Made by a program: the position numbers and the translations under genes
Shown here: piece by piece, positions 5,030 to 50,300 of the stretch
Numbering within the stretch: the first letter of the stretch is position 1
Layout of the letters: each line of letters starts with the position of its first letter
Source of the DNA: Gelatoporia subvermispora B
Lineage: Eukaryota; Basidiomycota; Agaricomycetes; Polyporales; Gelatoporiaceae
Assembly (NCBI GenBank): GCA_000320605.2
Contig: KB445815.1
Coordinates: 323,790 to 387,789, forward strand
Reading direction: 5' to 3'
DNA: 64,000 bases
Notes under the pieces: generated by a model
What the model was told of the DNA's origin: nothing
Databases searched by the model: none
Seen by the model: only the letters and a program-made list of their open reading frames with translations

Positions 5030-5241
5030 CACGGAGTCTGAAGCGTCCTTTCAGAAGTAAGTACCTGAAGTAAGTAAATCATCGATCTGTGCCACACACT
5101 GGCAACACGGAGTCCAGAACGATTCAATCTCAAAGTCAGGCAAGGACAGTTCAGTGGATATCACTCGAAAGGACCGTTAAGCAAGTATAGCTGATTCCTT
5201 CCTCAATCCTCAGTTCTTGACATCTGGAGGGACGTACGCTC

Positions 5242-13788: not shown

Positions 13789-15440
13789 TCGCTGGAACTA
13801 GGAAATGTGCTGTGCACATTTTTCTTTCGTCCAAAGAGGTGTCCTGCTGTATGCCTATAGACCTAAAGTTGTAAACGTAGTACAGAGTGCAAGAGAGCAA
13901 CAGATTACAGGAAATCATGGCGACCCTTCATCAGCTTCTGCAAACATGTTTGATCAAAAGAAGTCGAAGGACGCATCAGTAGCCTCCGAATGACAGACTA
14001 AGATATAGGGTCAAACTGCGGGAAATGATGCAATCAATGAGAACACCTCAGTCGAATTGGGCGATGCCGCGTGCGTGCAAAGGGGCAGATATCTCGTCAA
14101 TAATTTGTTTCGTCTTTTCCTTGCCAATCTCGTGCGGATATCCTTCGTAGTACAACTCAAGCTCCCGCAATGAGGGAAACTGAGCCGCGTCGTTCAGAAT
14201 GCGAGCGAGATTTTCGAGATAGGAGAGCTCTGGTGTGCCATTGAGATCGCTCTGCAGGTCGAGTTGCTCAAGTGAGGACGGTGCGATACATGACACGAGC
14301 TCGTATAGGTGCGGAAGGTGCCAAGGCTGAGTATAAATGGAAAGTGCCCGAAGGGACCGCGCAGACTTGAGTGCTTCTTTGAATGCGTTCAAATCTGAAA
14401 CGGGCATGAGATCGCTGACAGCACCTTGGAACCATATGCACAAACCTCGCGCATTAGGCGTTTCGTTCTCAGAAACAGAGCTCATATCAATGGTAAGTTT
14501 TGTCAGACTTCTTGCAGCTTTCTGGAGCAATGTTGGAATGGCAGCCCAGTCCGAAGGTTCATGCGTTATGACATGCAGCCCCTGCGTGCGAAAGCCATTT
14601 GGAGCGCCGGCAAGGAGGGTCAGAACTTGAGTCCCGCTCAGACACAGCAGGCGCAAATTGTTATCAAGCCTTGACATCCTGCGTATCACGTCGCCCATGA
14701 TGAGGTCATGTAAAAGGCCAGAGTCATGTAATCTGCGATCGTCGCACAGATCTAGATCCCGGATAGTGAGAAATATGGAGAGTACTTTGATCATGAAATT
14801 TGAATGCAGCATGATGTCTGGACATCTGACTCGAAGGTGTTGCAGGCAACCAATGGAGGAAAATGCGAATGGGTCCAGGGAGACCTCCGTTTCCGGTAGG
14901 TACAAACCGAGGTGTGTCACAGAGCCGAGGTTTTTTGCAATAGAATCGTAAAAGTATTCGCAGTCTAGACTAGAACGAAGGGATATATTCAATGTTATAA
15001 CGTGCAGACCAATGTGAGGAGCTGTCTGCAAGAGTCGGTGGAAGCGTTCTATGTCGCGAGACCTGTTGAACGATGTTTCGCCAAATAGATAGCGTCTAGA
15101 GCGCGGTAACCATGTTCTGCACGTAAGGCTACAAGCTCGAAGTGCTCGAAGGTTCCCTGAAGGAAATCAACGATGATGTCCACAATCTCAGCTGGAAAGC
15201 GAAAAGCCACGCTGTCGTGGCTTTCGGCCATAACGCACGTGCCTCAGCTCCAGACGGTGAACACTGAGAAAAGGGTCAGTCAGGATTGTTCCACGATTTC
15301 CTTACCAGATGATATCCACTGGACTCGCCTCGTACGACTCTGAGATTGAAATGTTCAGGACGCCGTGTTGCCAGTGTCTAGGTCAGTTGATAGTCTTCTT
15401 CAAGCAGCTCAGGCAGGACGCTTCAGATGATCGACGGTCG
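13575..15440. repeat. segmental duplication, copy B (source-like copy)
   Basis: This block, containing the transporter 3' end (+), the spacer and an F-box gene (-) with its 5' flank, matches copy A (about 5030-6665) in inverted orientation. Here the transporter is complete, so this copy probably keeps the original arrangement and copy A is the derived one. The edges were judged by eye. Confidence 0.7.
14048..15231 (-). pseudogene. F-box/LRR-like gene with a frameshift in the F-box (copy B)
   Basis: Starting at 15231 the frame reads MAESHDSV..FPAEIVDIIVDFLQ and then loses phase. Compared with copy A there is one base fewer around 15150-15165. In the shifted frame the F-box continues as LRALRACSLTCRTWLPRSRR and then runs open for 327 codons to the stop at 14048. 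The body contains LRR-like motifs such as SLTKLTIDM, SLRALSIYT and SLRELELYYEG. Either the base was lost and the gene is a pseudogene, or this is a sequencing error, or translation starts at the internal Met at 15031 and gives a protein without an F-box. The otherwise long open frame argues for recent inactivation or an error. Confidence 0.7.
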
Positions 15441-15932: not shown

Positions 15933-17120
15933 TCAAGATGGCCACCACACACATTCTACCTGAAGCATACTGCCAATAGCCTGTGACTTGAAAATCTCCA
16001 TAACCGCGCGCCTGAACTCCGTCCGGTCTACACTGTGCCAATGCCCATGCAGCTCAAGGTTGAAGGAACGAAAGACTGGGAACCGTGCAGTGTCGTTTAG
16101 AAGTGCCGAAAGCCTCCTGAAGTGAGCTAAATGCGGGGGACCATCGCCATGTAGATCAACAGTGAGTTCTCTGAGTTGCGAAGTCGGGGTGCGAGATAAG
16201 ATTGCATTGATCAACTGGATGTCTCCGGGTTGCCCGGTGAGCCAGAGGCAATCGAGGACATGTGAAGATTTCAGAACCTTTGCGAAGGCGAGGGGCACTA
16301 ACTTACGATGAGACTTCCGCATACACGTACATGAAGTAGGGTTCACACCTTCGTTCCACGAGGCGCCAGGGTACATAAGCATGTGCGTCATATCGATATC
16401 AAGGCCCCGTAATGAATCCACCACGGTGTCCAAAACCCTAAACACATTCGTCCACTCCGATTCATCGTACATCGTCACTTGGAGCTCTTCCAGTTTCTTC
16501 GGTGGACATAAGGGGAAGCAGCACGAGAGTACATCACCCGCACCGCCGCTGTAGGAAAGAGCTTTGAGGGGCAGCTGAGCGAGAGCAGCCGCAAAGATCC
16601 CTAATTGAGGATCATGCGCAATTTGAGGCCTCATCGTCGTGTCATGAGGGCGTAGTATCTGGATTGTTGGGTAGGCATTGAGGAATACGGCGAGCTTAGA
16701 GATGTTATTCAGTGCGCCTGCGCCATGCAGCCCCAACTTACGCACTGGTCCGAGCCGTGCGAAAGCAGTGAGGGGCGTCGGGTAGAAAGAGGTGCACGTC
16801 AACGACAACTCTTCCACATGGTTGAGATGATATACAACTGGTGGGAATATAGCCAGGTCGATACGGCGTTGTTGAAACGCCGCAACATGCAAGACCTTGA
16901 CGTATTGGCCCAAGTGCGGAGACCGCTGCATGAGACGCGAGAACTTGATCATATTCCGGATGGAGAGGTGTATAGAGCCGAAGAGGTGAGTCCTGGTGGA
17001 CGGGAGCCATGCACGGCAGGTCAGGCTGCAAGTTTTGAGCGCGCTGAGATCGTCGTAAAGAAAGTCAATGATGGTGTCAATGAGTTCGGGTGGTAGTCGT
17101 GGGATGTGGGTGGCAGACAT
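15933..17120 (-). CDS. F-box/LRR-like protein, 395 aa
   Basis: One long open frame. The F-box is at the N-terminus: LPPELIDTIIDFLYDDLSAL followed by KTCSLTCRAWLPSTRTHLFG. The rest is a series of degenerate leucine-rich stretches (VEELSLTC, KLGLHGAG, SLRGLDIDM, QLRELTVDL). F-box proteins recruit substrates to the SCF ubiquitin ligase through Skp1; the target is unknown. A possible 51-bp intron (GTGTGAACCC...AAGTTAG, about 16301-16351) lies in phase, and its removal would give WNE joined to VPLAFAK, closer to the paralogues that have an intron at this point. Both forms stay open. It is divergent from the F-box gene at 17418. Confidence 0.85.
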   Translation of the reverse strand: MSATHIPRLPPELIDTIIDFLYDDLSALKTCSLTCRAWLPSTRTHLFGSIHLSIRNMIKFSRLMQRSPHLGQYVKVLHVAAFQQRRIDLAIFPPVVYHLNHVEELSLTCTSFYPTPLTAFARLGPVRKLGLHGAGALNNISKLAVFLNAYPTIQILRPHDTTMRPQIAHDPQLGIFAAALAQLPLKALSYSGGAGDVLSCCFPLCPPKKLEELQVTMYDESEWTNVFRVLDTVVDSLRGLDIDMTHMLMYPGASWNEGVNPTSCTCMRKSHRKLVPLAFAKVLKSSHVLDCLWLTGQPGDIQLINAILSRTPTSQLRELTVDLHGDGPPHLAHFRRLSALLNDTARFPVFRSFNLELHGHWHSVDRTEFRRAVMEIFKSQAIGSMLQVECVWWPS

Positions 17121-17417: not shown

Positions 17418-18670
17418 ATGACCACTCGTCAATCCAGAGATATCAAATCTCTGCCACCAGAGCTTCTCATGATGATTACGGATTGCCTTTCTGATGACAC
17501 AGAGGCCCTGATCTCTTGTAGCTTACTTTCAAGAATCTGGGTCGCACCCACTCGCAAATATCTCTTTCGAAGCGTCTTCCTCTCGATTCTCAACATGCGC
17601 GCGTTTGTACAACTCCTCTCTGCATCGCCAAGCATTGGCAAATATGTGAAGACGTTGAACATCTCACTCTCTTCTGCTGACGATGACCTTTTCTTGCCGT
17701 TCATCACATCGCGTCTGGATTCGGTACAAGAGCTCTGCTTTGATATAGAGAGCAGAGGGGTTGTAATCCGCCCATCACCATTCGCAGGAATCGGACCCGT
17801 GCGCCGTCTCATTATCAAAGGCCATCATGTCATGCAAAATGCGGCTTCCATCGCGTACTTACTCAACGAGCATCTTACCATGAAGGACCTCGAGCTGCGA
17901 GAAATCACCGACTGGACTGTCGCCGTCAACGACCGCGGAATGAGTGCGCTACGCCGTTCCCTTGCGCGCCCGCGCTTGGTGTCTTTAATTGTGATGGGAA
18001 AGGGAGTTACCCATGCGTTGGCCTCTTGCCTCGGCGAGGGAGACAAACAGAGCGGTCTGGTGGAGTTGATCGCAGATCTCTTGATGGCTACCGACTGCAA
18101 CGCCATCGCTCGGATTGTCGGTAGTGCGGCCAACTCCCTGGACTTCCTGAGCATCAACATGCGTTCTATGCGGTCAGACGATGTGTCCGAGAACGATGGT
18201 AGGCGATTTCCTAGATAGTGATACGCCCATCCTGATTACTGCCGAAAGTGGACGAACTAGCCCAGGTCCTCAACGAGGTGACGTCCCTGGGATCTCTTCG
18301 ACTGGTCATGGACGCCGATAATGCTCCATTCTTGGCGGACCTCCTCTGTCAGGTCTCGTTGCCTGAGCTCAGGAAACTCCATATATCCATCACGTGTTAC
18401 GAACCTACCGTTCTCTCCGTCCTCGAGAAACTATCCCAGAATTTGATCAATTCGAGGAGTTTCCCTGCATTGCGCGTCTGTGAACTCATACTAGAAGGCT
18501 ATCCTGTCGACGCACGTCAAGAAGAGTTCCAAGAGGCAGTGGAGAGGTTGTACTCCTCTATTCAATCCAGACAGGTAGTGGACATCCAATGTAAGAGAAT
18601 AACTTATCTCGAATGCCAGCATCTAATATTCTCAGCCAGTCCAATAACATCGCACCTTCAGCTTTGTTAA
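17418..18670 (+). CDS. F-box/LRR-like protein, 385 aa
   Basis: Exons 17418-18198, 18249-18590 and 18636-18670 (introns 50 and 45 bp; 1158 nt). The N-terminal F-box reads LPPELLMMITDCLSDDTEAL, then ISCSLLSRIWVAPTRKYLFR. Later motifs SPFAGIGPVRRLIIKG and SLRLVMD match the same positions in the neighbouring paralogues. The last exon is tiny and is supported by intron placement: the paralogues at 19586 and 21559 also have an intron just after the residues that precede it. The start is the ATG that begins the conserved F-box block, although the frame is open upstream. Confidence 0.85.
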
Positions 18671-19585: not shown

Positions 19586-20939
19586 TCAACGATACATATA
19601 ATAGGCACTCTCAAAGCCGTCGCGATACCGCACTGCAGAGGTGGAGGTGGAGGTGTCAGAAAGGGCAAAGATAAGATGAAGCGTGCTTACATTCCAGTTG
19701 CAAATTATTATGATCATGCAGTGGGGCGAAAAGGGCGACGACGGCTTGTTTATACTTCTCCCAGGCTTCCTCCGGCCGCACAAAGGCCTGAATTTGGATC
19801 GATATCTCCCGAAGTCGCGATGTGCGGCACCTATCCAGTAGATGGTCGCGCAACGATGCAAGGCCGGATAACTCGCGGATGCCTCCGTTAGCGAACCCGA
19901 ATTCCAAGTGTAGCTCCTGGAGCTGTGGTGCCTCGATGCGTGGCAATAATGTGATGATGAACTTCGAGTTCGATATGTTCGCCTCGAGGATCAAGTGTGT
20001 CAATTTGGGACAATTGAAGATGGATGCCAGGGTGGGTAATGCTGCACACCACCATTAGGGCTCAGTGATTCGAAGAGGTAAGTTGCACATACTTGGTTCG
20101 TCCCAACGCTGCCTAGTCATCGTGATGCTGAGACACTTCAGGGAATGCCTCGTCGTGTTCATCACGCACGATACGGGTCGCCACTCGACATGCGCGTCTG
20201 CCATTTCGATCCTCAACTCCTGAATAGCCTCTGGTGGCCTCGTTGCCAGGCAAGGTGCCAATATCTCGCACGCGTTGCCATTCGTCTTGAGGCGTTTTAG
20301 CCGGAGCTTGGACAGCGCCTGGCTGAATATGTCCAAGTCCTCATGCGAATCGGCGTAACCCTCGGGATAGAGGGATATGGTGAAGACGAGGTCCGCAACG
20401 AATGGGAGTGCGTCGAAATATGCCGCAAGGGTCGGAAGGTGCCACGCAGCCATGATCTCAAACCAGAGCTTCTTCACCGGACCGATGCCGCTGACAGACT
20501 TCGCGAGCGGGAGTTCGCGAAATGGACAGAGGAAGGCGAGCTCTTCTACGTTTCCGAGCTTCCCAGAGATAACGAGGAAGAGTTCACGCTGTGCAGGTGT
20601 CTTCGGGACGCTACGGAAGAGCTTAACGCAGCTGCCGAGGTGAGGCGAATCCTGTAGGAGACGGTCGAATTGACTGAACATATTGTCTGAGATGCTGATG
20701 CATCGGAAGAGATGGCTTCTGGACGATGGATACCATGCGCGAGAGATGAGGCTTGCAGCTCGTAGCGGAGACTGGTCGCAGGAGTCAATCAAGGCGATGT
20801 TGACCTTGTCAATGAGCTCTTGTGGCAATTTCGACGCTGCGCTGGCTGGGCGGCCGATGTCGTTCGCAACGGCCTCGACTGCTGTCACGACGTTGAATAC
20901 TCGACTTCAAGCTAATTGTGCGAGTTGGAACTCACCCAT
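19586..20939 (-). CDS. F-box protein, 396 aa (tandem copy 1)
   Basis: Four exons on the minus strand: 20939-20936 (only ATGG), 20881-20093, 20041-19691 and 19632-19586, i.e. lengths 4/789/351/47. The 4-nt first exon is spliced by GTGAGTTCC...GTGACAG, so that the start codon plus one base join CAGTCGAG. Without it no ATG opens the F-box frame. The N-terminus then reads KLPQELIDKVNIAL and AASLISRAWYPSSRSHLFRC, an F-box. Blocks GIGPVKKLWFEIM and LQELHLEFGF follow. The C-terminus is LRYRDGFESAYYMYR. The tandem neighbour at 21559 has exactly the same exon lengths, which strongly supports the model. Confidence 0.88.
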
Positions 20940-21558: not shown

Positions 21559-22910
21559 TCAGCGATCCTCATAGTACTCGTTCTCCCAGGAGGAAAGGTA
21601 TCGCACTGGAACAGTAGATATATAACTGAGACGCGACGAGGATTAGGTCCTAGACACTTACAGTCTAATCGCAAGACATTCATACTTTGCAACGGTACGA
21701 ACAGAGCGAAGATTGATTGCTTATAATATTCCCAAGCTGTTTGAGGGAGAACAAGGGCTTCAATCTTGATCGAGATGTGCTGAAGCCGGAAATTGTAATA
21801 CATATGGGTGAGACGCTCACGCAAGAGCGTTAGATAGGATAACTCGGGCATTCCGTCGTTAAAGAACCGCAACTCCAAACTTAACTCCTGGAGTTGCGGT
21901 GCCTCGATGAATGGCAACAGCGCGATGACAAATTTCGAGTTCGAGACTTTCGCTTTGAGCATCATATGGGTTAGCTTTGGGAACTGAAGATCGGATGTCA
22001 ATGTGGGTAGAACTTCGCCCCACTGTTAGTACGCAGCAAGCGAAAGACGTGAACACTTACCTGGGTCGTCCCAACGCTGCCTGCTTATCGTAATGCTCAG
22101 ACGCTTCAAAGAATGTTTCGTTGTATCAATAACGCAGGACACAGGTAGCCACTCCAGGTGGAGGTCTCGTATCTCAATGTCCAGCTCCTGTACCATCTCT
22201 TGCGGCTTTGCCAACAAGCAAGGTGCTAAGATCTCGCATGCATTGCCGTCGGTGTCGAGATGTTTGAGCCTAAGCTTGGACAATGCATCGCCAAATGTCT
22301 TTAAGTCTTCGGGTGAGTCGGCTTGGTCTTGTGGATAGTGGTAGATGGTGAAGGTGAGATCCTCTATTAACGGGAAGGCGTCGAGATAAGCCGCAAGGGT
22401 CAGAAAATCCCATGTATCCGAGATGACTTCGAACGAGAGTTTCTTCACCGGCCCAATCTTGCACACGGACTCTGCAGGTGGAAGTTCGCGGACTTGACAA
22501 AAGAAGGCGAGGTCCTCTACGTTTCCAAGCTTCCGGCATATAGAAGAGAAGAGCTCGCGCTGTGACTGCGTCTTTGGCGCGGTACGAAGGACTTTGACGC
22601 AGCCGCCGAAATGAGGTGAATCTCGCAGGAGACGATCGAACCGCGAGAATTGACTCTCAAAGACGCCGATGCAGCGAAAAAAGTAAGTCCTCGATGACGG
22701 ATACCACGCATGGGAGATGAGGCTGGCAGCCCGCAGTGGAGACGAGACGGAGGGGCTGCAAAGGGCAGCATTGATCTTGTCTATGAGCTCCTGCGGCAAT
22801 TTCGACGCTATGCTGACCCGGTGATCAGTGTCATTTGCATTTGTTTCGACTTAAATGACAATGTTAGAACGTCAGCTGTGTACTGATTGCACGAGTAAGA
22901 ACTCACCCAT
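21559..22910 (-). CDS. F-box protein, 396 aa (tandem copy 2)
   Basis: Four exons: 22910-22907 (ATGG), 22849-22061, 22012-21662 and 21605-21559, again 4/789/351/47 nt. The first intron is GTGAGTTCTT...ATTTAAG. Protein blocks parallel copy 1: SKLPQELIDKINAAL, AASLISHAWYPSSRTYFFRC, KIGPVKKLSFEVI, LQELSLELRFF and the C-terminal LRYLSSWENEYYEDR. Third-intron splicing uses the AG of GGCGAAG, not the earlier CTAACAG, because only that keeps the phase and restores the conserved PTL after DDP. The two genes are clearly products of a tandem duplication and diverge mostly at substitutions, not indels. The likely role is a substrate adaptor for SCF. Confidence 0.88.
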
Positions 22911-23288: not shown

Positions 23289-24004
23289 TCAGGCATGTAC
23301 AGGATACAACGGGTGTACATAAGCGGAAAGATCGAGGAGACTCGCAAGAACCGCAACGTCGTGTTTGCCATCAGCATCGTACTGTAAGGTCAGGTGCACG
23401 TGCTCTAGGTGCGTAGGACAGACATGGGATATCAATGCCACCGCGACCGTACTGTGCCATGCTTTGGCCCAGACTGTGAACGAGCGCAGGCTCGTGAGGG
23501 AGGCATAAGAGTCGCCGAAAATTGGCATGGCTTGTAGAACATGGTGTCAGCTTCCGTCTAAGGGGCTTGTGCGAATGCATGCATACCTAGAATGTCGTGC
23601 TGTCTTGCCCAATGCAAGCGGCAATTGAGGACACTCAGAAAGCTGGAAAATAGTCCAAGGAGCTGGGAGAAGTCATCCCAGTTCGTGCATACGCCGTCCT
23701 GGAAGTGTCGTGTTCGCACATTGCTCTGCGGCTGAAGAGATATGCAGTGCGCAAGGAGACCGCAGGTACGATCATCGACGTCAACCTTTTCTACATGAAG
23801 GGTCGCTAGTGCATCAACCAGTGGCGTCACGACCTTGGAATCAACCTCGAAGGCTGTCTGCCTGGAATTCTTCAGTGCAAGCTCTTTCAGCGATGGAAAT
23901 AGAGCCAAGTATCCGGCGAGCGCTGTGATTTCGTCTGGCGTTGACTTAAACGAACCGAGAATGGTCAGACGCGTCACCGGGCCTATTTGGGCGAATGAGA
24001 TCGG
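23289..24004 (-). pseudogene. 3' half of an F-box/LRR gene split by a transposon
   Basis: Two exons: 24004-23587 and 23530-23289, with a 56-bp intron GTATGC...CTACAAG. The frame begins abruptly with PISFAQIGPVTRLTILGSFK, the mid-protein block that the other F-box paralogues have as GIGPVRRLIIKG. It has no F-box and no start codon of its own. Immediately upstream is the 9-bp target duplication and then the transposon. The missing N-terminal half lies 6.4 kb away at 30424-30789 on the same strand. The tail (LDLSAYVHPLYPVHA) looks like a natural C-terminus. Confidence 0.9.
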
Positions 24005-24013
24005 GGGTGAGGC
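24005..24013. repeat. left target-site duplication
   Basis: GGGTGAGGC directly outside the left end of the element, repeated at 30415-30423. Because neighbouring bases also match (11 identical bases in all), the true duplication could be 7 to 11 bp depending on where the ends are drawn. Confidence 0.85.
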
Positions 24014-24042
24014 CAGGCTCTTGAACCATCCGTCGCTGTAGA
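24014..24042 (+). repeat. left terminal inverted repeat
   Basis: Starts CAGGCTCTTGAACCATCC and continues GTCGCTGTAGA. It mirrors 30386-30414 with two mismatches. A shorter, oppositely oriented relative of its core occurs at 24162-24176. Confidence 0.85.
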
Positions 24043-24161
24043 GTTGCCTTCCACAAATACTAGAGCGGAGTGCGAATGTGATTATGTGAGCGTTGGCACG
24101 TGTTAATTACTAGATTTGGACGTGCTTCTTGATATGGGGTGGTGAATGAAGGAAGACAACT

Positions 24162-24176
24162 CTACAGGACGGCTGG
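24162..24176 (+). repeat. left subterminal motif
   Basis: CTACAGGACGGCTGG, about 150 bp inside the left end. It is the reverse complement of the core of the terminal repeat (CCATCCGTCGCTGTAG) with one base missing. The right end has CTATAGGACGGCTGG at a similar distance. It is a candidate transposase-binding site. Confidence 0.7.
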
Positions 24177-24525
24177 CTTATATCCCTTTCCGAATTTCTC
24201 CGCGCAGAGATGGAACCGAACGGCAGTGAGGTAGGACGAATCGGCTGCGAGTAGAAACACCAGAAAAAATGAGAGTAAATCTCTGAAACCCCAGTCCAGG
24301 TTTCAGATTTTTACCTTGCCGAACCAAGTATGTTACGGCGCCAATAGCACCCGAAGTCACGATTCATACAACGTGTGACTGTGTGCAATAGAATCCGTGT
24401 ACAAAGCCGAAAGAAGCTCGTCAGACATAGAACATGCCGGAAGATGCTGCGATAGCAATCCTCGTGTTGATACATGAACTCGACAGCCTTATCTTGACAC
24501 TCCCCGAGGTGAGGCCCTACTAGCC

Positions 24526-27400
24526 ATGCCCCCCACAATAAACTCCTTGCCGCTCATTCTCAGAGCGATCGAGAATGAAGGCCTCACCGCCAGATCTTTC
24601 TTCCTGATGTTGGCGCAAACACGGACTTCTACCCACAATGTAACTGTAGGAGACCTGCAGAACAGTGGAGAGTTAGCGACATGGCTTATGGACGGGATGG
24701 CAAATGATGAATTTACCAAGTTATGTACTATTAAGCTTGTGAATAGAGCTTGTAAAGGGGAGATCCAGTTACTTTCGGAGAAGGACACAGGCCTTCATTT
24801 CAATGCTGCGAAAGTCACGGATGACCAACTCAAAGAATTCGAACTCGACGTTCTCGCACACAAGATGCGCATGTACGCACCTGTTACGTGGGAGTTGCTT
24901 CAGACTCTCCTCGCGGCGAACACATCTCTTGTGACGCAGCGCCGGGCTCGGAGACGCCGGGCTCGTAAGCAGCGAGCTCGCCGACAGCCAAGTCCGGGCA
25001 TCCCTTGGGCTACAGAGAGTATTGAACTCCCAATACCGGAAGACGGAGATGGCGAGCATAGCAATGTGAAGTCCGGGTCTGGACCATCGATGCCGGATGC
25101 CGATGATGCCGATGACACCAGGTACTGGAGGGATATTGGAGACATGCAGGACGGCGATGAAGATAGTGATGTTGAGGATGATGATGATGCTGAGGATGGA
25201 CACAATGTCAGGAATGAGAGCAATGTTGCAGAGGAGAGGAATGACAAGGGCGAAGGTCCTGATGAAGACGAAGACGAAGATGTGAATATGATCGAGAAGC
25301 GGAGACAAGCCGTCTTGACAATGGTGACATGTTCACCAGTATTATTGATGTGGGAGCTAATATAGGTAGAATATCTAGAAAACGGTTATATGTTTGAGCA
25401 TCGTAGCTCAGAGCACGAACCAGAAATGTAACGCACTTCAGGCGATGGTCGGAATTTTCCTGCATGCGTGTTCAACACCTGAAAACGTCGTTGATCTGCT
25501 GTCGCGCTTTGGGCTCTCTGTATCGCGTTCCACGATATACAGCGCTGTAAAAAGCCTGTCAGCAGATGCCACAAAGCAGATAAAACAAGCTGGGAGCACC
25601 CTTCTCACCGGCCCTGTATACGACAACTTTGAATACGAGTCCAAGCATCTCGTACCCACGCTTGAAAAACCGCACGACACCCTTATCCACATGACGTCGG
25701 GTATGCTTCTTCGGCTGGATCACGGGGTGAAGCTGGAAGACCTGCGCTGCTGCGAACAGCTATGGTCAAGTTCTTCTCATAACCTTGTGAATCATCGAGG
25801 CGTCGAGACACCAAGCTGGCGCAAGCTGGCGCAGACTATCGGGGTGCACGATATGGACGACTCAGGCATGAATCGGCGTCAGCGTTTTCAAGCATGGAAA
25901 TTCCTTGCGGATCTAGTTCACCACGGTCCAGAATACTTCCGGCAGTTCAAGGCCGACTTGGGCGAACCCGAACCCGTTGAAAAAATCCCTGTAGTACAAT
26001 CTAAGCAGGTCCCTCTGCGCGCAATGGACATTAATGAATCTACCACGGCAGGAAATGGGGAAGCACTCACGGATATATTCAAGCAAGCCAACATCGGAAG
26101 CCATGCCGAGGATGGGATGCAGGGGCGTCGAGATATCGGCGATCACGTGATTCTGGTCCATGGCGACTTGGCGACTGGCGAACGAATCGACGCTCTGCAG
26201 CGGTCTCGTTCGGAAGAGAAAACGTCCTGGAGGAAATATCAGCATGTAATCTTCGTGATGGGCTTGTTCCATCTGAAGATGGCTTGTGCAGAAGCAGTCT
26301 GGAAGCTGTGCATTGTTCCCAAAGCTGCCCGAGCGGACAAGACCTGCCTCATGGCAGAGGTAGCAGCAATACGCCCTAAAGAAACAAGGAAAGTTATCAG
26401 TAAGCCCGGGTTTCGTAGAATGCATGAGATAATCCAGCACGTCGGGATTGTCTCACGATTGGACTGCTGGAGAGTAGAGGTAAAGCGGAGGTACTCGGTC
26501 AATAGCCTTGAGAACTGGGCGAAGACGAAGCCAACTTGGGAGATATTGAAGGACATCGCGAAGACTCTTGTAAAGGACTATGTCGCGGGTTCTGACTTGA
26601 AGCGCCAGCGATCAGAGCCACGTGAACGCCGTGACGAACAGCGTGAAAATGCCATGGTCCGCCAACAGCTATACATGTACTATGAAGAGATCAGTGGTGC
26701 AATGAATGCGGGGGACATCGGATGCGTTGAGCAGTGTTTCTTACCTTGGATCCTTGTCTTCAAAGGGTGCGGGAAACACAAGTACGCGACGCACATGCTG
26801 CGTATCTTACATAATCTCTATTTCGTGTATCCTGCGGGACTGAGGTGAGTAATTGATAAACAGGCAATATTTTAAGGACTTACAATTCTCAGACGGGCAA
26901 TCCGGATGAACTGGCTATGTAATCCTACTGGCCAGTACAACGCATTCTGTGGGGTGGACTGGTGGCTCGAGCATAACAATTTATATACCAAGGTATGAAA
27001 TACATGCAACTACACTACGACCAAACAAATAACTCAGCCGATACAGCGCATATATGCTGGCCTATACTCCACACGTACACAAGAGCGCATTATTAAGGAG
27101 TCGCCGCTAATACAGTCGTACAAGCGGGTGCGCATTACCTTCGAGGATATGTTCATGTTACAACAGCGCAGCTACGCACATTCTGGACCTGCAATGGAAC
27201 GAACATTCAGAAGACTCGCAAAATTGATGGAGGAATTAGGGACTCACAAACACGAACCTGGCCGCTCTGCTAAGTACACCATGCCGAATCTCATCAACAG
27301 CGGCCTGGCGAAGTTAGGGTCAGTGGGTTCTGAACTGGTGGATGTGGATGACGTCGTGGCAGAAGAAGTCGATGGGGAAGATGGGGATTTGGATGTATAG
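24526..27400 (+). CDS. DUF6589-like protein, candidate transposase
   Basis: First exon from 24526 to about 25320-25350, then exons from about 25399 to 26844, 26893-26992 and 27038-27400. The first junction is not resolved. The N-terminal part ends in an Arg-rich patch (RRARRRRARKQRARRQ) and a long Asp/Glu stretch. The rest resembles the DUF6589 proteins abundant in mushroom genomes: NQKCNALQAMVGIFLHAC, YDNFEYESK, HGDLATGERI, MGLFHLKMACAEAVWK, NPTGQYNAF and DWWLEHNN. In-phase acidic residues in those blocks (D at 25622, D at 26165, E at 26969) could be a DDE-type triad in an RNase-H fold. That is inference, but it fits the terminal repeats and target duplication around this gene. The family itself is officially of unknown function. 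Confidence 0.75.
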
Positions 27401-30028
27401 ACGTACCGTTTGCTCCGTTTACTCGTACTGCGGGGGGATTGTATGGAGCACACCAAACGAGCCCTGAGTTCCGTGGCCTGGGGATAGGTGATGTATAGCG
27501 GGTGACGCTCAGGTTTGCGCTGTTTGCATTAAGCACGAGCTGGGTCGTGGAGACTGCCGGAGGCTGTGGAGCTACAGCATCAGGAGGGCGCATAGGACAA
27601 TCTCTTGAGCGGCCTGCAGTGGTTGGATTAGCAATGCACACGTACAATCCAAAATGAACTTACAGCTATGTCCCTGGCGTCCACACTGGCTGCACGTTGG
27701 AGCCTTGCGCTTCCGAGCGCCGCTCACACTTGCTTCAGGCTGATCTTGCACTTGTGGAACGTCCACTTGCATAGGCACTACAAGGTGAACCGGAGATGGG
27801 GGAGGTAGGGGAGGTGGGAAAACGGAATGCACGATCATCATGAGAGCATCTCCAAGAGTATCCGTCCATTCTCCAGCCCATGCGACCTCCTTCTGAAGGT
27901 GTTCTTGAGTATTCAGCTTGCCGGCCTGAGCACAGTCGACTATGCGCTCGAGGTTTTCATCTGAGAATATCAAGCTCCCTCCGAAGTCAAGAAACATTGC
28001 ACGGCCGTACTTGCTCTCGGCCTCCTGGTCGCGCCAGTTGAGGAGCTTGAGTCGCAGCCGCTGTTCAGCTTCGCTCGCTTTGTATGGTTTGATGGTCGAT
28101 TTCTTCATTGCTCTTGCTGGCTTTGCGGTGCTGATTTCGCCGAAGATGTCGAATGCAGCTGGGTCGCAGAGATCACAGCACGGGGATGGTGACTTAGGAG
28201 CGCAGCGTCGGCAACCGTCAGGTTGTTCATTATCACACTGGAGGTGATCGAATGCTGTTGTGATCAAGCGTGAGAAATGATAGATACAAACGCCCAAGAT
28301 CTGATCACGTACTACACTTGTCGTTTGAATAAAAAAGTGTAATGGGTGTGCGTCGGCACTTGAAGCCTCGCGATTCGGCGTTGACAACGTCAAGGAGTGC
28401 TGGTTGAACGGTTTTGGTTTCTTTCTTCACCGCAGTGATCTTCGTGATCGTGCTCTTCGCATACAAGCACCTCAAGGCCTCAATGTCGACTTCAATATCA
28501 TTAGCGTGATTTTGTGTCTCTGAGTGCCGAATTAGCCCATTGTACCAGTAAGAATAAGCAGAAAGACATACCTATATCAGCATTGAGCGCTGGTTGTGTG
28601 GCCGCTGGAATATCTGAGTTAGCGATATTGTCGTCATCACTTGATTCGCTGCTATCGTTTGAGGCAGGCTCTGAGAGAACGACAGCTCCAGCGTGAGGAG
28701 CCTGCTGATTCTCAAGTCGCCTACGCTTGGACGCTTTCTTGGAGGTGTTCTTACGCTTTCGTTTCTTCGGAGCTGCGGCTTGAGCTTTTCGATGTGCCCG
28801 TTTCTGAATGTCGCTGTCCCAGAGTGCCTTCTCCGCAATTAAGATCGCAAAACCTTGAAATCCGTCGCCTCTCGCTGCACGGCCGAAGCGTTGCCAGAGC
28901 GTGTTGAGGCTCGATGGTACTTTCCACTGGATAACGATCTTGATGTCAGATAGGTCCAGTCCCTGCAAAAGGAATTAGAAATTATGTTGCTCAGATAAAC
29001 GATTGACTCACCATGCCAAAGGAGTCAGTGACACATAGACCGAAGGTGTCACTGTTCTTCAAGGCCTCAAATTCGTCGTTCCGGTACTTGTCGGACATTA
29101 TTGAGTGGAACCACTTGACCTTGTGCCGTAGGTGCTCAGGTAGGCGACTTCGAAGATGCTGAGTGGCCGCTTCAGCTTCCCGAATGTTATTGAAAAAAAC
29201 CAGAAACTTGGGCAGTGGGGGGTCGCCGTCCTTGAAGTTGTCTGGAATGAGGAAGTCAAGGTCGCGATACGATTCGGCAGAATGTCGCATTTTGCGGACC
29301 CCAATGGCAATGTCTGGACGGTCATTCGAGCGCAAGATATAGTCGGTTTGGTCGGGTCGCAAGTGCAGAAGATCGGTCACGTCAGAGAGGACTGGAGTTG
29401 GCAGAGTAGCGGAGGCGACGTAGAACGGAATAGAGTCAGGAATGAGATAGCGAAGAGAGCCGACGTGCTTGTATTGTTCGCGGAAGGCGCTCCATTCGCT
29501 GATGCAGTGTCCTTCGTCGAACACAAAGTAGAGAATCCGGGATGTGAAGCCAGGATTCTTCCAAAGCTTCTCGCAATGACCCTTTGAGCGCATAAGCATC
29601 TCCGGGTTTATTACGACCACCTGGTGCTTCCCGGCTTCTATATCCTGAATTTCGGGTTCTGGATCAATTACTTGTCAAGATAGAAATAAAATAAGGCGCA
29701 CCGCAAACGTCTCCTCCGTGGCACTCTGCGCGTCCACAGCAACGGCACTGATCCCAGCCGCCCCCAAGATCTCGACATTTTGCCGTCCGAGAATATTGAG
29801 CGGAGTGACCACGAAGATCATTTTGTCTTGCTTGTCCTCAAGAGCCATAAGCAGGGGAATCCAGAAGGAAAGCGTCTTGCCAGAGCCGGTCGCCGCGATG
29901 GCGACAACGTCATTTTGTTTTTCATATAGAGAGCGAGCGACGTTAAGCTGGAAGCGACATGCGCGTTTTCCGAATTTCTGTTGCGTGAGATCACGAATTC
30001 GCTGAATAGACCAAGAAGAAGGAGTCAT
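27294..30028 (-). CDS. RecQ-like DNA helicase with C-terminal zinc knuckle, 821 aa
   Basis: Six exons: 30028-29702, 29644-29012, 28962-28572, 28519-28316, 28254-27664 and 27613-27294 (2466 nt; phases agree). Helicase motifs in order: I AATGSGKT, Ia VTPLNIL, II FDEGHCISEW (DEGH where RecQ has DEAH), III ASATL, IV FLVFFNN, V VTDSFGMGLDLSDI, VI QRFGRAARGD. After the helicase core there is a Lys/Arg-rich nuclear-localisation-like run (KKRKRKNTSKKASKRRR), a Cys-rich segment (CRRC...CCDLC), and a knuckle CSQCGRQGHS completed by CRSRDC across the last intron. It lacks an obvious HRDC domain. Such helicases are highly repeated in Agaricomycetes. This copy is carried by the transposon and probably assists transposition or repair. 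Its last 107 nt are antisense to the end of the DUF6589-like gene. Confidence 0.85.
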
Positions 30029-30263
30029 CTGGCTTCTGGAACTGCCGAGTATGGTTGTCCTCAACATAGGAGGTTCGAATGGGTGACTAAGCAGGAGAGA
30101 TCCGTGACAGGGAGCGCCCGCGTGATGATCCCGACGGCACGCGAGGCCAGAAAATTCAGGAAATTCCAGGCAGAAAATAGGGTGTAGCGCCCGAGATCTC
30201 ACTGCTCGCGTACTCAAGATCTCCGGTTCCTCCGAACGGCAAAACCTCGGCACACCTTAAGGA

Positions 30264-30278
30264 CCAGCCGTCCTATAG
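30264..30278 (-). repeat. right subterminal motif
   Basis: On the minus strand CTATAGGACGGCTGG, about 140 bp inside the right end, pairing with the left motif at 24162-24176 (one mismatch). Confidence 0.7.
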
Positions 30279-30385
30279 ACTTGCCCGTCCTTCACACACC
30301 TCCGAATTTGGCTTACTCGTAGAAATCACATGATCCCGGTCACATAATCAGCACGTGTGCACGCCCTCGGATGGAGCAGGGCTTG

Positions 30386-30414
30386 TCTATAGCGACGGCT
30401 GGTTCAAGAGCCTG
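30386..30414 (-). repeat. right terminal inverted repeat
   Basis: Read on the minus strand from 30414 it starts CAGGCTCTTGAACCAGCC and continues GTCGCTATAGA, mirroring 24014-24042. Confidence 0.85.
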
Positions 30415-30423
30415 GGGTGAGGC
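30415..30423. repeat. right target-site duplication
   Basis: GGGTGAGGC, identical to 24005-24013. In the split F-box gene it encodes Ala-Ser-Pro on the minus strand, in phase with both halves. Confidence 0.85.
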
Positions 30424-30789
30424 CGTATTTTCGTCGTTCCGGAGCAACATCAAGTCGCGCACACGCCCAAGTCTATCGGCAGTGGATGCCAGGTACTCGA
30501 TATCCGCAGCATTTGCGTAGAACGCGCAAAGCGTCTTCACGTGGTGTCCAAGATGTGGCGAGCGCTCGAGCAGATTCTTGAAAGCAGTGTACTGCTTCTG
30601 TTGACGGAGCTCTATTCTCCTGAACAGGGGTGCGCGGGATGGCGGGTACCATGCTCTGCAGGTGAGTCCACATGCCTGGAGTGCTGGACGATCGCTGTGA
30701 AGGAAGTTATCTATGATAGCGTTGACGAGTTCTAGAGGTAGTTTGTGAGCAGCACAGGTTTCACTTTTCATTGTATCGTTACGATCCAT
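30424..30789 (-). pseudogene. 5' half of an F-box/LRR gene split by a transposon
   Basis: From the ATG at 30789 the frame gives KLPLELVNAIIDNFLHSD, then ALQACGLTCRAWYPPSRAPLFRR, a clear F-box. It continues through LGHHVKTLCAF and LGRVRDLMLLRNDENT up to the target duplication. Reading then runs into the transposon end and stops about 25 codons later. The C-terminal half is at 23289-24004. The upstream frame is also open to 30903, so the start could be earlier, but the paralogues start close to the F-box. If transcribed, the truncated product would keep only the F-box and could act as a dominant competitor for Skp1; that is speculation. Confidence 0.88.
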
Positions 30790-42994: not shown

Positions 42995-45797
42995 TTACTC
43001 CTCCTTCTTGAGCCACTCCTCGTCCGTCGCGTTGGCCGCTTCGGCTGCATCTACAGCCTCGAGCAGCTCGGCCTCGGCGTCCGCCTCAGCATCCATATCC
43101 GCGTCGGCGTCGACATCCGGATCCGCATCGGCGTCGGCGTCGGCATCGGCGTCTGCATCCGAGCGCGACTTGGTGCCACTCCCGCGCGACGAAACCGACC
43201 CGCGGGGCGAGTTTGCGGCACCATTGACGCGCATCGGCGGCGACACGCTTGACACGTGGCCATTCGACCGCTGGTCCCTGCTGTGGCTACGACTCCGTGG
43301 ACGCGAGCGTGGCTTATGGCGTGCGCGGTCGGCGTCATAGCTGTCCTCGTCGACGCTGGAGCCGGGGAGCGTGGCAATATACGGAGGGGTAGGAGCACGC
43401 ATGGCGCCGGAACGGCTGTAGGAAGGATGCGGCGAGGTCGGCCGTGTGCGCGAGTCCTGCTCACGCTCATGTTCGTGGCGGAAGGAGCTGGTGGGGATGA
43501 TGTGCGTGCCGGCAGGCCCGAGTGTGGCGCGCGACTGCGAGCTAGGGTGCGTGAGAGGGAGGGTGTCTTGCCGGTGGAGGGAGCGCTCGGAAGACGAGGG
43601 GAGGCGGCCGTTCAGGAGCGAACTGGAGTGGTGGGAGGATGGGTGGACAGCCGCAGGCTGGGAATGTGACATGTGGCTCGCGAGCCCGGGGTGGGTCAAG
43701 TGCTGGCTGTCGAGCGTCCCTCGCCGCTCAACGCGCTTCATCTTCTTCCGGCAACTGGTGCGAGTACCAATGAGATTTTATTTCGAATGACACCAAGACA
43801 GGGTTAACGTACCGATCGCAAACCGTGCCAGGACCTTCGGGGCCAGGGCCCCATTTTTCGACACATTTGCCTTCCTTGTACCTGCCCGGCTGCCCGCAGT
43901 GACGGCAGATACGCTGACCGACCGCGTTAGTAGGCGGGAAGCTACCTCCGCCCATAGCCGATGGACCAGAAATGACACTCCCGGTCGGGCCTGTGAATCA
44001 TGATCAACTTCATGCAATACGGGCTACCATATGATGGGGCTTACCAAGCGTGATAACGCTACCGTTCGCGCCGAGGCTGCCTATGCTCCCCTGGCTACCG
44101 CCAGGTTTTGGCCGCTTGACAGGCGCGCCAGTCACCGGCGGGGCGAAAATATGTGTCTGAATTTGGGTAGGCATGGGCTGGCCGGGAATTGGGTGCGTCC
44201 CGCCAGGCACGCCGGGACCAGAAGGCGAGAGTGTGCCAGCGCCGGGAGGAGAGACACCAGGGCCAGAAGCTGCGGCGGAGGGATGGAGTTGGTGGGTGTG
44301 AGAGATGGACGGCGAGCCGCGCGAGTGAGAGTGGGCGCGGTGGTGATGGGGAACGGAGAGGTACTCGCGGCGATCGGGTGATTGAGACCGGTGGCGGACA
44401 CGGAAACCAGATGCGAGGGGGTGGCGGGCTGGGGCGTGCATATCGGCGGGGCGACCGTTGTCAGCGGTTGTGGCCTCGAGAAGCATTTCGTCGAGGCTCA
44501 TGGAGCTGCCGCGGCTACGCGAGCGCGAGTGTGAGTGTGACCGAGAGATGCTGTGGCCACGTTGGCGGGAGCGCGAGTGACGCTCGGAGGCGGCGTAGGG
44601 CGTGTCCGGGTACCGAACGTCGTCGCAGCGGACATCGTCGCGAGAGCGATAGGAGGGCAGAGCCGACGACTGTTGCTGCTGAGAGGTGTAGTACGGGTGC
44701 AGGGTCGGGATTCGGGCGGCCGCACCGGCATGGTCCGAGGTGCCGTTGAGGAGGTAGGCGGGATGCGGGGAGTGTGACGGCTGCGGGGGGGTCAGGCGAC
44801 GGCGGGTGGAACACAAAAAATGGTAACGTACCGACACGGAATACCTGGATGGCCTGTCAATGACGTCGCGATCACGATCACGATCGCTCCTGAGCCTCTT
44901 GGACGGCGGCGGGCCTCCGGGCCCAGAGAGCGCGCCGGGGTATCCCGTCCCGTCGATGCTGTCCGCCCGCGGCCGCACCCGGCTCGGCGCGGGCACCGGC
45001 GGCGGGGGTAGCGACGGGAAGACGTGTGTAGAGCCGCCTGCGCGGTGCGATGACGACGGCGTCGTCGAGGGCAGCGTCGAGGGCGCGCGGGGAAGGGGGT
45101 TGAGGTGGCGAACGCTGTCGGGTCCATTCTGCATGGCCTGCTGCAGCATGGCGGGGAGCTGGCCTGGTGGCAGGTGCACCATCTGGCCGCCACCCTCGGC
45201 GACAAGGCGGGAGAAGCTTGTTCGCGCATCCGTGGCACGGACAGCGAGCAGGCCGAGGTAGCGTTCGAGCTCGCTCCACGCGTCTTGCAACACGCGCAGG
45301 CGCGCGTCTGCCTCGTCGCGTGCGACCTCTGCGCGCTCAATCCGCGTTTCGCACTCTGTTACTACCTTGAGCGCATACTCCGGCAGGTCGTGCAACGCCT
45401 TGGTCCCGTTGTGAGTGGCACCAGCAGCTGAGCCAGGAGGGGAGCCGGAGGTGGCTGACGGGCGTTGCGCACCCTCGACAAGGTCGGTGAGGGCGGCGAC
45501 GGTGCGCTCGAGCTTGGCGTTGACGCGCTTCTGCTTGTGGAGCTCGGCGCGGAGCGACTCGTTGTCGCGGTAGCTCTTGGAGAGCATCGAAGCGAGGGCG
45601 GCGGGAGACTCTGTGGGCGGGCTGACAACACCGTTCGGCGCGAGGGTTGGGGAGGCGTGTGGGGGTGCGGTACTGTTGGAGGACGGTGCAGCGACGGAGG
45701 CGGAAGTGTCGGGTGTCCTGCGCGCGGAAGGGGGCGAACGGAGAGGAGCCGAGGGGGGGACGGAGGCGGGTGCGGGTGGTTGTGGCGAGGCGGACAT
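42995..45797 (-). CDS. GATA-like zinc-finger protein with coiled coil, 879 aa
   Basis: Four exons: 45797-44832, 44780-44045, 43990-43813 and 43754-42995 (2640 nt). The intron at 44781-44831 is 51 bp and in phase, so a gene finder may read through it. The N-terminus is Pro/Ser-rich, then a coiled coil (SKSYRDNESLRAELHKQKRV and RIERAEVARDEADARLRVLQ). A long Ser/Arg/His-rich region follows. The finger is split by an intron: ICRHCGQPGRYKEGKC, a Gly/Pro loop, then TVCDR joined to CRKKMKRVERR, i.e. C-x2-C-x25-C-x2-C with basic residues behind, as in GATA-type fingers but with a longer loop. The C-terminus has an Asp-Ala repeat (SDADADADADADAD...). Likely a nuclear regulator; no orthologue is named. 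The start is the ATG at 45797; the frame is open further upstream. Confidence 0.82.
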
Positions 45798-46533
45798 GGC
45801 AAGTTCGGAGACGGTGGCGGGGACGGGATGGACGATGGGGAGGAGGACGAGGAGGACGTCGAGCGCGACGAGCGCGCCGGGAATGGAGGGGACGGTGTGG
45901 GGGAGGAAAAGGGGGGGCGGGGGGATATTTGAGGAGGGAGGATTATTATGGGCACGGGAGTCGCGGCCCAGGGTGCGGCGCGGGCCAGGGTGCGGCCCAG
46001 GGTGCGTCGCGCGGCACGCTCGCGCGGCGACATCACAGCCCTCCGCCCAGACGCTTGCCAATCTCGGCGCCCTCCACTTTCATTTCCCCCTTGCCTTTTC
46101 TGGCCCCCTCCTTACCATTCCAGGCAACTCGGCTCCGTCTCCGGGCGACCCCGACCACCGCTCCCGCCCCTCGCGCCGCGATCGCCCGCCGCCGCCCGCC
46201 GCCGCCGCCCGCTGATGTCGTCGGCTACGCGCTGCTCATCGCCGTCTCCTGCGATACCATCGCGATGTTGTGTTCGCCGTCGCGCAGGATGAGCGCGCCC
46301 CTCGTCGGAGAGCGGTGCAGGCGCGCAGGCGAGGCGTTCGTTCGCTGACTGCGCCACTCGCAGGCTGCTTCTCCGGCCCTGCGTGCGCCTTTGGTGGAAT
46401 TCCAGGTATCGGTCTGATACACGCGGCCGCGGCTACAGTTTGCTCTCCTGCTTCCTTGGATCCTCCCGGGTGCCGACGTCGAGCCTCGAGCCGCCCACGC
46501 ACGCGGACGCGCCGCCACGCGCGCTGCGACACA

Positions 46534-46582
46534 CGCTCTGCCGGGCTCTGCCAGGCTCTGCCAGGCTTTGCCAGGCTCTGCC
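46534..46582. repeat. 10-bp minisatellite
   Basis: About four to five copies of GGCTCTGCCA with small changes, inside the GC-rich gene-free region. Confidence 0.75.
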
Positions 46583-47126
46583 TCGCGAAGCCCTCCCCGC
46601 CACCTCCCGCTTTTCATCAACTTGACGGACCGCAGCGACCCACAGCAAGCGATCTGTTGCGTCAGCGGTGTGCGTGATGATGATGATGATGTTCCTGGGA
46701 GGTGATCCAGCCCGGCGCAGCACACCCCGCGACAGGCCGGCGGGAGCGTGGAGGGGCCCTGCGAGGCCCTGGGTGCGGCATCTGTCCGCGCCTCGAGTCT
46801 CGCTTCCGTTCCCTCGCCCGTCTGTTGCGCGCGTCTTCTCGCCGTCGGTCCTCCGCAGGGCAGGTCCGAGTGTGTGCGTGCGCGCGTGCCCATCCCACGC
46901 CCCGATCGACACCCGCTCGGCGCGTGTGGCGCGTGTGGCTCGCACGTCTCGTCTCGCCACTCTGCGAGTACTCTGCGTGCCGTGCGCAGCCGCGCAAATC
47001 CGCGCGCTGCGTTCTCGGTCGCACGGACGGACTTTGGAGTCGAGCCCGTGCGCGAGCCCGACCCCTGCCGCCGAATCGGGCAGCGCCTTCTCGCTCGCCA
47101 GGCACGTCTGCGCCCGGCCTCCCGCT

Positions 47127-47225
47127 TCTCATTGGGTCCTTGCGGGTCTCGCACGCCGCGTCTCATTGGGTCCTTGCGGGTCTCGCACGCCGCGTCTCAT
47201 TGGGCCCTCGCGGGTCTCGCACGCA
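47127..47225. repeat. 34-bp tandem repeat, three copies
   Basis: The unit starts TCTCATTGGGTCCTTGCGGG and ends with TCTCGCACGCCGCG. Units one (47127) and two (47161) are identical, and the third (47195) has a few substitutions. Confidence 0.85.
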
Positions 47226-47226
47226 G

Positions 47227-47335
47227 GGCTGGCTCTGCGCGGCTGGCTCTGCGCGGCTGCGCGGCTGGCTCTGCGCGGCTGCGCGGCTGGCTCTGCGCGG
47301 CTGCGCGGCTGGCTCTGCACGGCTGCGCGGCTGGG
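47227..47335. repeat. 22-bp GC-rich tandem repeat
   Basis: Repeated GGCTGGCTCTGCGCGG followed by CTGCGC, about four to five copies, starting right after the 34-bp repeat. Likely to form stable hairpins. Confidence 0.85.
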
Positions 47336-50300
47336 AACGGCGGACAGATGTCGGGCTTTCTTGCATCGGGACGGCTCCGACCAGGCGCATGCGGGGGTGC
47401 AGGCTTGGCGCAGCTGGCGTGGTGTGGCAGCGGAACTGTGCGCGGCGGCGCTCCAGAAGTCAGGCGTCCATCCATCACAACGCGTCGCGCGCTGTTGTGT
47501 TGCGGGCGGTGGTAGTCCTGTGCGGTGCGGGCGCGCGCCGGAGGGGAGATCTCCGCCGCGGGCGCACCGCACACTGCGAGCGCACCGCACGCCGCTCTCC
47601 CGATCACGCGCATCGGCGTGCGGACTGTGGCGCGGTGCGGCGCGACGCCGGCCCAGGGTGCGCCACGGGGTGCTCGGGGTCCACCCCCGGGTGCGGCGGC
47701 GCGCTGCCAGGTGCTGCCCGGTGCAGCCTGGTGCCGCCCGGTGCGCGTGCTGACCGCGTGCGCTAGGGTGCGCTGGGTCGGGGCGGATGACGCGCGTGCG
47801 CAGGCTCAGGCGCCGGCAGAGGGCCCGCGCTGCGAGGCGCTGCCTGGCCTTGCCTGGCGCTGCGCCCTGCTGCGCCGCGCGCCTCATGTGTTCACCCGCG
47901 ATGCTCCCACGCTCCCGCCCACGTGCCTTCTAATGGAAGTTCTGCGCGGCGCGCGCCGCACGGGCAGCCGCCACTCTGCGAACCGCCGCGAACGCCCCCG
48001 AACGCGCGTGGGCCGCCCACGCGGGCGCGACACGCCGCCTGCGCGGCCGCCTGCACGACCGCCTGCTCCCTCCTGCGGGCGGCAACGGGCCGGGCGTCCC
48101 TGCCGTCACGGAGAGCGCGGCGACGTACGCGCGATGACGCGACGTGCCCCGCCGTGACGTCGGCACGGCGCTGCAACGTCGGCGAAACCGCCGGCGGACA
48201 GCGCCCGGAGGCGTCCGGGTGCTTCGCGTGCCGGCACTCGGGCTCACGCACGGCGGCCGCACGTGCGAGGCGGTCGTGGCGCGGTGGGCGCTCACGGCGG
48301 GAGCAGTGAATGTTCCCGCGAACGCGCTTCTGACGGGGCCGGGCCTGGCAGGCTGTCGCCGCAGTGAAGCCGCGCGCCACGGTCCCCATCTGCGTCCACC
48401 GCCTTCGCCCATGCTCCCGCCGGCCGCCCAGCCTTGGCCTAGTCCACTTGCCAGTTCGGGGGCGCCAGCTCTCATCCGACCCGCGCGGCCATATGGCCCT
48501 GCCCCGCCCATCACAACGCGGTTGCAATGAGGCCCTCCATCTCCGGTCATGTGCCTCACCCATCTTGTCCTCTCTCGGTCATGGCATTCGTCGACACGCT
48601 CCTCATCCTCGCTCGACCCTATGCGTTCAAGGCCTAGTATGTTTGGTCTCTCCGCGATGCTTCCCAAACCGCCCAGTTGCTGCTACGCTGCGTCTGTGCT
48701 GCACGCTGCGTTGTGCTGCTGCGCCTGTGCTGCATGCTGCGTCTAGTGTCTGCTCGAATCCCGGCTCCGCTGTCAGTCGAGTCTCCTGCGACACCAGTGT
48801 CTGATCTCGGGGACAGCCAGCGGAGCCGCTCGCGCTGGAGCATGTGCTGCCCTCCCAGGCGTCCGCGAACCACGCATCCATTCATTCGCACATCCGCCCA
48901 TCGTCCCATCCGTCCTCGCCTTCTGCCATCCCGCGCCGCCCCACCCCGGCCGCGCGCCCTCGGACATCCCGGCCCTGTCGTTGCTAGCCGCTCGCAGGCC
49001 CTGGCTCTTCGCGCAGGCTGTGCTCCGGACGCTTCCCGCGTGGCGCCCTCCGCTTCTCATTGGCCCCGTCTCCGTGCGCGCCGTGGCGACACTGCGGCCT
49101 CCCAGACTGCCCCTGCGGCCCGCGCCCATCTTTGAGTTTGCAGCACAACACGCGCAGCCCGTCCCCCTTCCCCGCTGCCTCGCGGCCCCCCCTTGACGCA
49201 TGTTCGCTGCCCGCAGCGACGCTCACCCACTCCGTCGGTCCACACATACGCCTTCCTTCTCCCCCCCTGGCCGCCGCGCCCCCCAGGTGCATACCTTGCC
49301 GTTCGTCGCGCCCAAAGATAGGCTAGCCTGCCTGCACGCCTCCGCGCGGACATGCCGTCACTCATCCTCTGCGTCCGCGCTAAGCCTCGCTCGTCCCCCG
49401 CCTATTTCTCGCAATGGCCCCCTTCTGGCCAGGGCATCTCCGGATGGCCCCTCGTCCCCTGCACGCACCACCCAGGCATTCTCCAGTTGGCATGCACTGG
49501 CCCACTCTTGACACTCGACATCCACCCTGCGCCGCGGCGCCAGAACGCCTCGCAGCCCACCGAACCACCCCGCGGCCGCTTCATCGATCTGCCGCGCACA
49601 TCATCTTCTGCATTCACTCGCTGCTCGGGACGCCGCCGCCTCACACGACCCGGGCGGGCCGCACGCTGCTGCGCCCACCTCGCGCCCGCGGCTCGTGAGC
49701 GGTGCACCCGTGCCGCTCGGCTGTCGTTCGTTCTCTTGTTCCCTGCGTTCCCCGCCGTGTCTGGGCGGTGCAGCGCGCGCCGCAGTCCCTGCGCACACAG
49801 CCAACGTCTGCCTGCTACGCCCAGCATCTGTCGCGAAGTCCTGCATCGGACGACCCGCGACCATGTCTCCGATCGGGGGATCTGCTCGTCGTCCGGCGGG
49901 CTGATCGTATCTTCTATCTGATATCCGCTGGCGCTTGGCCGCCGGTCTTGCGCGTTCGAGCGCTGTCTGGGTTCGGGGGTGCGTCCGCTTGCTCGCAAGA
50001 CTTCCATCTTCGCCCCCGCACGATGTTCATGCGCTACCGCGTGCCAGCGGTTGGTCAAGCACCCTGACAGGGCTCGGGTGCTGTGTTCTGGCGCCAAAGA
50101 CCAATGGACGGCGGTAGATTACTGCGCCCGGCGAGCTAGTACCGACCGTCGACGGCTAGAGGTCGATGTGGCGAGGGCACTTTGCGTGCCCCCCGGGTTC
50201 CCTCTCTACCTGTACCTCAACGTCCTCACAGTGACTGAAACGCTGTATTGGCTTTGCTCCCAGTCGTTCTCTTCCCGTCGTTGTCAGCCAGTCTGACGGC

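Follow-up and report, generated by a model that had tools for sequence, protein, structure and literature searches.

The locus described here raises two related questions, namely whether a 6.4-kb transposon has split an F-box gene, as the original prediction held, and to which kind of transposon the insert belongs. The window, by which the whole stretch of DNA analysed is meant, comprises the final 64 kb of contig C25 (387,789 bases) in a genome of 37.7 Mb and 52 contigs. The terminal inverted repeats (TIRs), the 9-bp direct repeat and the removal of 6,410 bp were all found as predicted. The inserted element itself is 6,401 bp long, and the element plus one repeat makes up the 6,410 bp (Table 1). 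Its TIRs are 30 nt long with 93% complementarity. Taken alone, the repeat at the window site fits 7, 9 or 11 bp; because other copies of the element settle this ambiguity, the length of the target site duplication (TSD) was set at 9 bp. The preferred reading, to which a probability of roughly 0.85 is attached, is that a cut-and-paste, helicase-carrying DNA transposon of the AcademH type was inserted into the F-box-like gene, where a staggered cut at the target would have produced the 9-bp duplication.

Table 1. Positions of the element, its ends and genes, and the interrupted gene in the window.
Feature	Position	Strand	Details
Target site duplication, left copy GGGTGAGGC	24005-24013		
Target site duplication, right copy GGGTGAGGC	30415-30423		
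Transposable element, 6,401 bp, probable AcademH-type	24014-30414		TIRs, 9 bp TSD, like ends on four further elements of 6.2-6.4 kb elsewhere
Left TIR (outer site)	24014-24042	+	
Right TIR (outer site)	30386-30414	-	
Left inner site, inverted TIR core, 1 nt shorter	24151-24176	-	ssDNA fold of 24014-24185, z = -3.52
Right inner site, inverted TIR core, 1 nt shorter	30263-30286	+	ssDNA fold of 30255-30414, z = -2.54
DUF6589 gene (probable DDE transposase)	24526-27400	+	905 aa, Pfam PF20231 E = 1e-84 on exon 2 ORF
DUF6589 exons	24526-25323, 25379-26844, 26893-26992, 27047-27400	+	homologue-guided introns
RecQ-like SF2 helicase gene	27572-30028	-	Pfam DEAD 8.4e-24, Helicase_C 7.4e-15
Helicase exons	30028-29702, 29644-29012, 28962-28572, 28519-28313, 28254-?	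-	provisional 3' end
5' half of F-box-like gene	30424-30789	-	122 codons, TSD excluded
3' half of F-box-like gene	23289-24013	-	includes 56 nt intron 23531-23586

When the flanks are joined with one repeat kept, the gene runs from an ATG at 30789 to a TGA ending at 23289 and contains 344 codons plus a stop (345) after splicing. The 344-codon open frame that had been claimed is therefore correct for the spliced gene and not for the raw frame, which stops just below 23561 unless the 56-nt GT-AG intron (23586-23531, minus strand) is removed. With the element in place, the frame of the 5' half continues into it for 24 codons before a stop is reached. The junction of the rejoined protein is ASP/PISFAQIGPV. 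Paralogues were said to carry GIGPV at this point, and two of them do; others have KIGPV or RLGPV, and the paralogue at 14207-15145 has SIGCL. The F-box identity also needs qualification, since a Pfam F-box-like match is present yet weak by profile (E = 0.016, under the Pfam cut-off). F-box-like paralogues are found on both strands of the window, at 5233-5634 (+), 14207-15145 (-), 16503-17099 (-), 17445-17822 (+), 19845-20840 (-) and 21822-22808 (-), and overall are 25-38% identical to the interrupted gene; three of them show 24.6-28.1% identity over 323-342 columns and three further ones 31.9-38.3% over 128-204 columns. Elsewhere in the window, GC content reaches 68-72% at 44001-50000, unlike the rest, and several short tandem repeats lie at 45962-48744. 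That the insertion is recent was supported, in undated form, by the absence of in-frame stops from either half of the spliced gene, and both element genes are open in the window copy too (the helicase as far as modelled).

A search among 3,453 candidates with the rejoined protein as query gave one relative at E <= 0.001, P0122, a protein of 193 aa on a 2,262-base contig. P0122 shares 162 of 166 residues with the rejoined protein, and its sequence crosses the junction through ENTASPPISFAQIGPV, where the duplicated codons occur a single time; this supplies the uninterrupted site proposed as a check of the prediction. The start Met of P0122 is also in frame upstream in the window. The C-terminus of P0122 departs from the window frame after FPSLKE and then ends, which may be due to an independent frame shift or a sequence error. 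Judged from its sequence, P0122 is a form without the insert; if its contig were RNA-derived, a spliced-out insert would be the alternative. Within the same genome, a DNA search for an empty site with each flank matched only that flank itself. In itself the insertion is nothing unusual for a transposon, and the sequence without the insert documents it well.

The element carries a DUF6589 gene and a gene for a RecQ-like helicase, and these internal genes recur in the genome with the same ends and different flanking repeats, as the suggested search for other copies required. Fifteen elements with both ends read were counted in this genome, five of 6.2-6.4 kb (C25, which is the window element, C6, C13, C10 and C23) and ten of 305-564 bp; among 38 TIR-like matches, those with only one end read or known were kept out of the count. 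Exact 9-bp TSDs flank 12 of the 15 elements, whereas C23, a 6.3-kb element, has an 8-bp TSD and two short elements, C12 and C15, have none. On the window gene models, neither gene of C25 or C13 contains an internal stop (the helicase being covered down to 27660). At 97.6% identity to the window element, the C6 copy has two stops in each gene, and in C23 no internal stop was seen, with some splice sites failing to project. The dN/dS values were 0.24 (DUF6589) and 0.28 (helicase) for C25 against C6, and 0.12 (DUF6589) and 0.08 (helicase) for C25 against C13. A further protein, P0001, is identical to part of the window DUF6589; its contig has 428,375 bases, compared with 387,789 for that of the window, and its record may represent another assembly or strain holding the same element.

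DUF6589 is listed in Pfam (PF20231) as a family of unknown function. The introns of the window gene are 55, 48 and 54 nt long, all GT-AG, and its protein ends in GDLDV, a C-terminus that several relatives in other fungi share. The predicted model of a DUF6589 relative resembles the Hermes, P-element, RAG1 and Transib transposases, with Hermes (hAT) as the top match, and an RNase-H-like catalytic core is present in this predicted fold. An Asp-Asp-Glu set is kept in every row with a residue among 17 aligned (P0023 numbering: D212 in 10/10, D393 in 17/17 and E648 in 14/14), and D348, D529 and E781 are proposed as the catalytic set of the window protein. Because the model resembles Hermes, P element and RAG1 and the Asp-Asp-Glu set is conserved, DUF6589 is probably a transposase. 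Pfam DUF6589 was matched by all 53 aligned relatives, and a weak match to the Tc3 helix-turn-helix was found in one of the 53 (E 0.026). In the PDB, a sequence profile of the DUF6589 alignment matched only GabR (E 0.11-0.16). Viral structures gave no match to DUF6589 at E <= 0.001, the best being a Pandoravirus hAT-like protein (1.2e-2); 27 pattern matches in viral contigs included no DUF6589 relatives, and a plasmid collection gave no match. Two protein searches returned 605 and 326 DUF6589 relatives (120 of each listed, which may overlap), and the organism names among the matches listed were those of mushroom-forming or related fungi. Animal relatives, since AcademH is described from animals too, were sought with a second DUF6589 lineage, and the organism names were fungal among the matches listed (120 of 326). 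A literature search on DUF6589 or PF20231 found no paper about the family.

The solved chains nearest to the element helicase are WRN and RecQ, and a Cys-rich part follows the helicase domains in this minus-strand gene. Across the genome, the 22 DUF6589 matches represent 13 loci, and the 30 matches to the helicase represent 16. A helicase relative at C1:215989-216993 is 64% identical and has a TIR-like end nearby, with no DUF6589 match within 30 kb. Of the 13 DUF6589 loci, 12 have a helicase no more than 10.4 kb away, and 10 have one within 2.3 kb, against a chance expectation of about 1% of loci, several loci being copies of one family and not independent. At the remaining locus, C1:1022652, a 2,965-base N stretch begins at the place expected for the helicase. 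The two genes are always on opposite strands, convergent at nine loci and divergent at three (C1:2904470, C6:636148 and C11:739807), where the nearest helicase is upstream. The helicase could instead be cargo or a captured host gene, outside the transposition machinery, as two helicase loci without a nearby DUF6589 (C1:216529 and C3:834077) would allow; this is doubtful, since DUF6589 is so regularly accompanied (12/13 loci), even in elements about 60% identical overall, and most differences between the copies are silent (dN/dS 0.28 and 0.08). As a working part of an AcademH-type element, the RecQ-like helicase would aid strand opening or repair in transposition.

Every end of the 12 elements examined (24 ends) has an inner site at which the TIR core recurs in inverted orientation. 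These are 12 of the 15 two-ended elements, C10 (partly read) and C12 and C15 (no TSD) having been excluded. The inner copy corresponds to the TIR beginning near base 12 or 13, lacks the outermost 12 bp and extends to 142-173 bp from the element tip. The core is 1 nt shorter inside, reading CCGTCGCTATAG in the outer and CCGTCCTATAG in the inner site with a few substitutions, and CCGTCGTTATAG and CCGTCTTATAG (outer/inner) in C23, C17 and C28; at the left end of C8 and the right end of C26, the aligner placed the 1-nt gap two bases away. The inner-site match exceeded the best of 200 shuffles at 23 of the 24 ends, the failing one being the right end of the short element C25:39595 (score 21 versus 22 for the shuffles). 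Agreement between outer and inner sites was 574/637 (90.1%) within an end and 537/634 (84.7%) across ends, a small excess that is absent in C17 and C28.

These paired sites may serve in strand pairing or may be two kinds of protein-binding site, and on a conservative reading the constant differences between outer and inner sites fit two kinds of protein-binding site. In an AcademH-type element, the inverted inner sites would be further binding or regulatory sites near each end, and DUF6589, as an RNase-H-fold DDE transposase (D348, D529, E781), would cut at CAGG...CCTG. A more elaborate scheme, at present an unlikely one, would make each end a two-site device, consisting of an outer site with a 12-bp tip and an inner inverted site with a core exactly 1 nt shorter, the inner site having been kept through divergence to 60% identity. 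The RecQ-like helicase would open the end, which could then double back on itself or be kept in a loop; the additional G of the outer site would mark the cutting position for the transposase. If true, this would provide a concrete role for AcademH-type helicases, and DUF6589 would be a transposase that depends on a helicase. With outer and inner sites in pairs, the role of the helicase can also be put to the test.

Other assignments of the element were weighed against the same data. Mutator-like elements (MULEs) also make target duplications of about 9 bp, and in TSD length the window element would pass for one; such an origin is nonetheless improbable, as DUF6589 was matched by 53 of 53 aligned relatives, no MULE model occurs among 25 of 35 Pfam families listed, and a helicase partner is not a known feature of MULEs. 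A hAT or KDZ (Zisupton-like) origin, with a duplication of unusual length, is hardly to be expected either: although Hermes (hAT) is the top fold match and one 6.3-kb element has an 8-bp duplication, the 9-bp duplications in 12 of the 15 elements lie outside the hAT range of 5-8 bp given in excerpts of PMC12730594, which describe hAT variants with 5-, 6- and 7-bp duplications. No hAT model was found among 25 of 35 Pfam families listed, and the helicase partner would be left unexplained. That the split gene is an assembly join is scarcely credible, for while the locus is known from one assembly only, the window element has an exact 9-bp duplication and complete termini, similar termini occur elsewhere in the genome with different flanks, and an uninterrupted sequence exists (P0122).

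The present analysis adds to the split-gene observation an intron, the probable AcademH-type identity of the element, the link of DUF6589 to a probable transposase role and the paired end sites. These results connect DUF6589 with a mobile element whose ends are defined, with a set of conserved acidic residues and with a helicase gene nearby, and thus proteins of this family could receive a new annotation as probable transposases. With interrupted and uninterrupted sequences and short elements available, an activity assay would be straightforward.

Among known systems, Helitrons are not known to have TIRs or a TSD, and Kolobok elements have a TTAA target duplication. KolobokH and Helitron both encode a helicase, according to excerpts of PMC10799480, and have this gene in common with the window element. 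Helitron was rejected since the window element has TIRs and a 9-bp TSD, and KolobokH since the TSDs are 9 bp of varied sequence, not TTAA. The hAT (Hermes), P element, RAG1 and Transib transposases resemble the predicted fold of a DUF6589 relative; at the sequence level, profile searches gave no match to them in the PDB or in 25 of 35 Pfam families listed. AcademH transposons were reportedly defined by Kojima in 2020 (Mobile DNA 11:15). Excerpts of PMC10045372 give TSDs of 9 or 10 bp for AcademH and 3 or 4 bp for AcademX, and relate these to the helicase and nuclease of the two groups. AcademX, of the same superfamily, therefore differs in its short TSD and nuclease from the 9 bp and helicase found here, whereas the exact 9-bp TSDs of 12 of the 15 elements and the DEAD and Helicase_C domains agree with AcademH. 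Excerpts of PMC10799480 place AcademH, with low copy numbers, in Basidiomycota, Ascomycota and Mucoromycota. The likeness is one of description and extends, as far as these excerpts go, to the helicase gene, the 9-bp TSD, the few copies and the host range in Basidiomycota.
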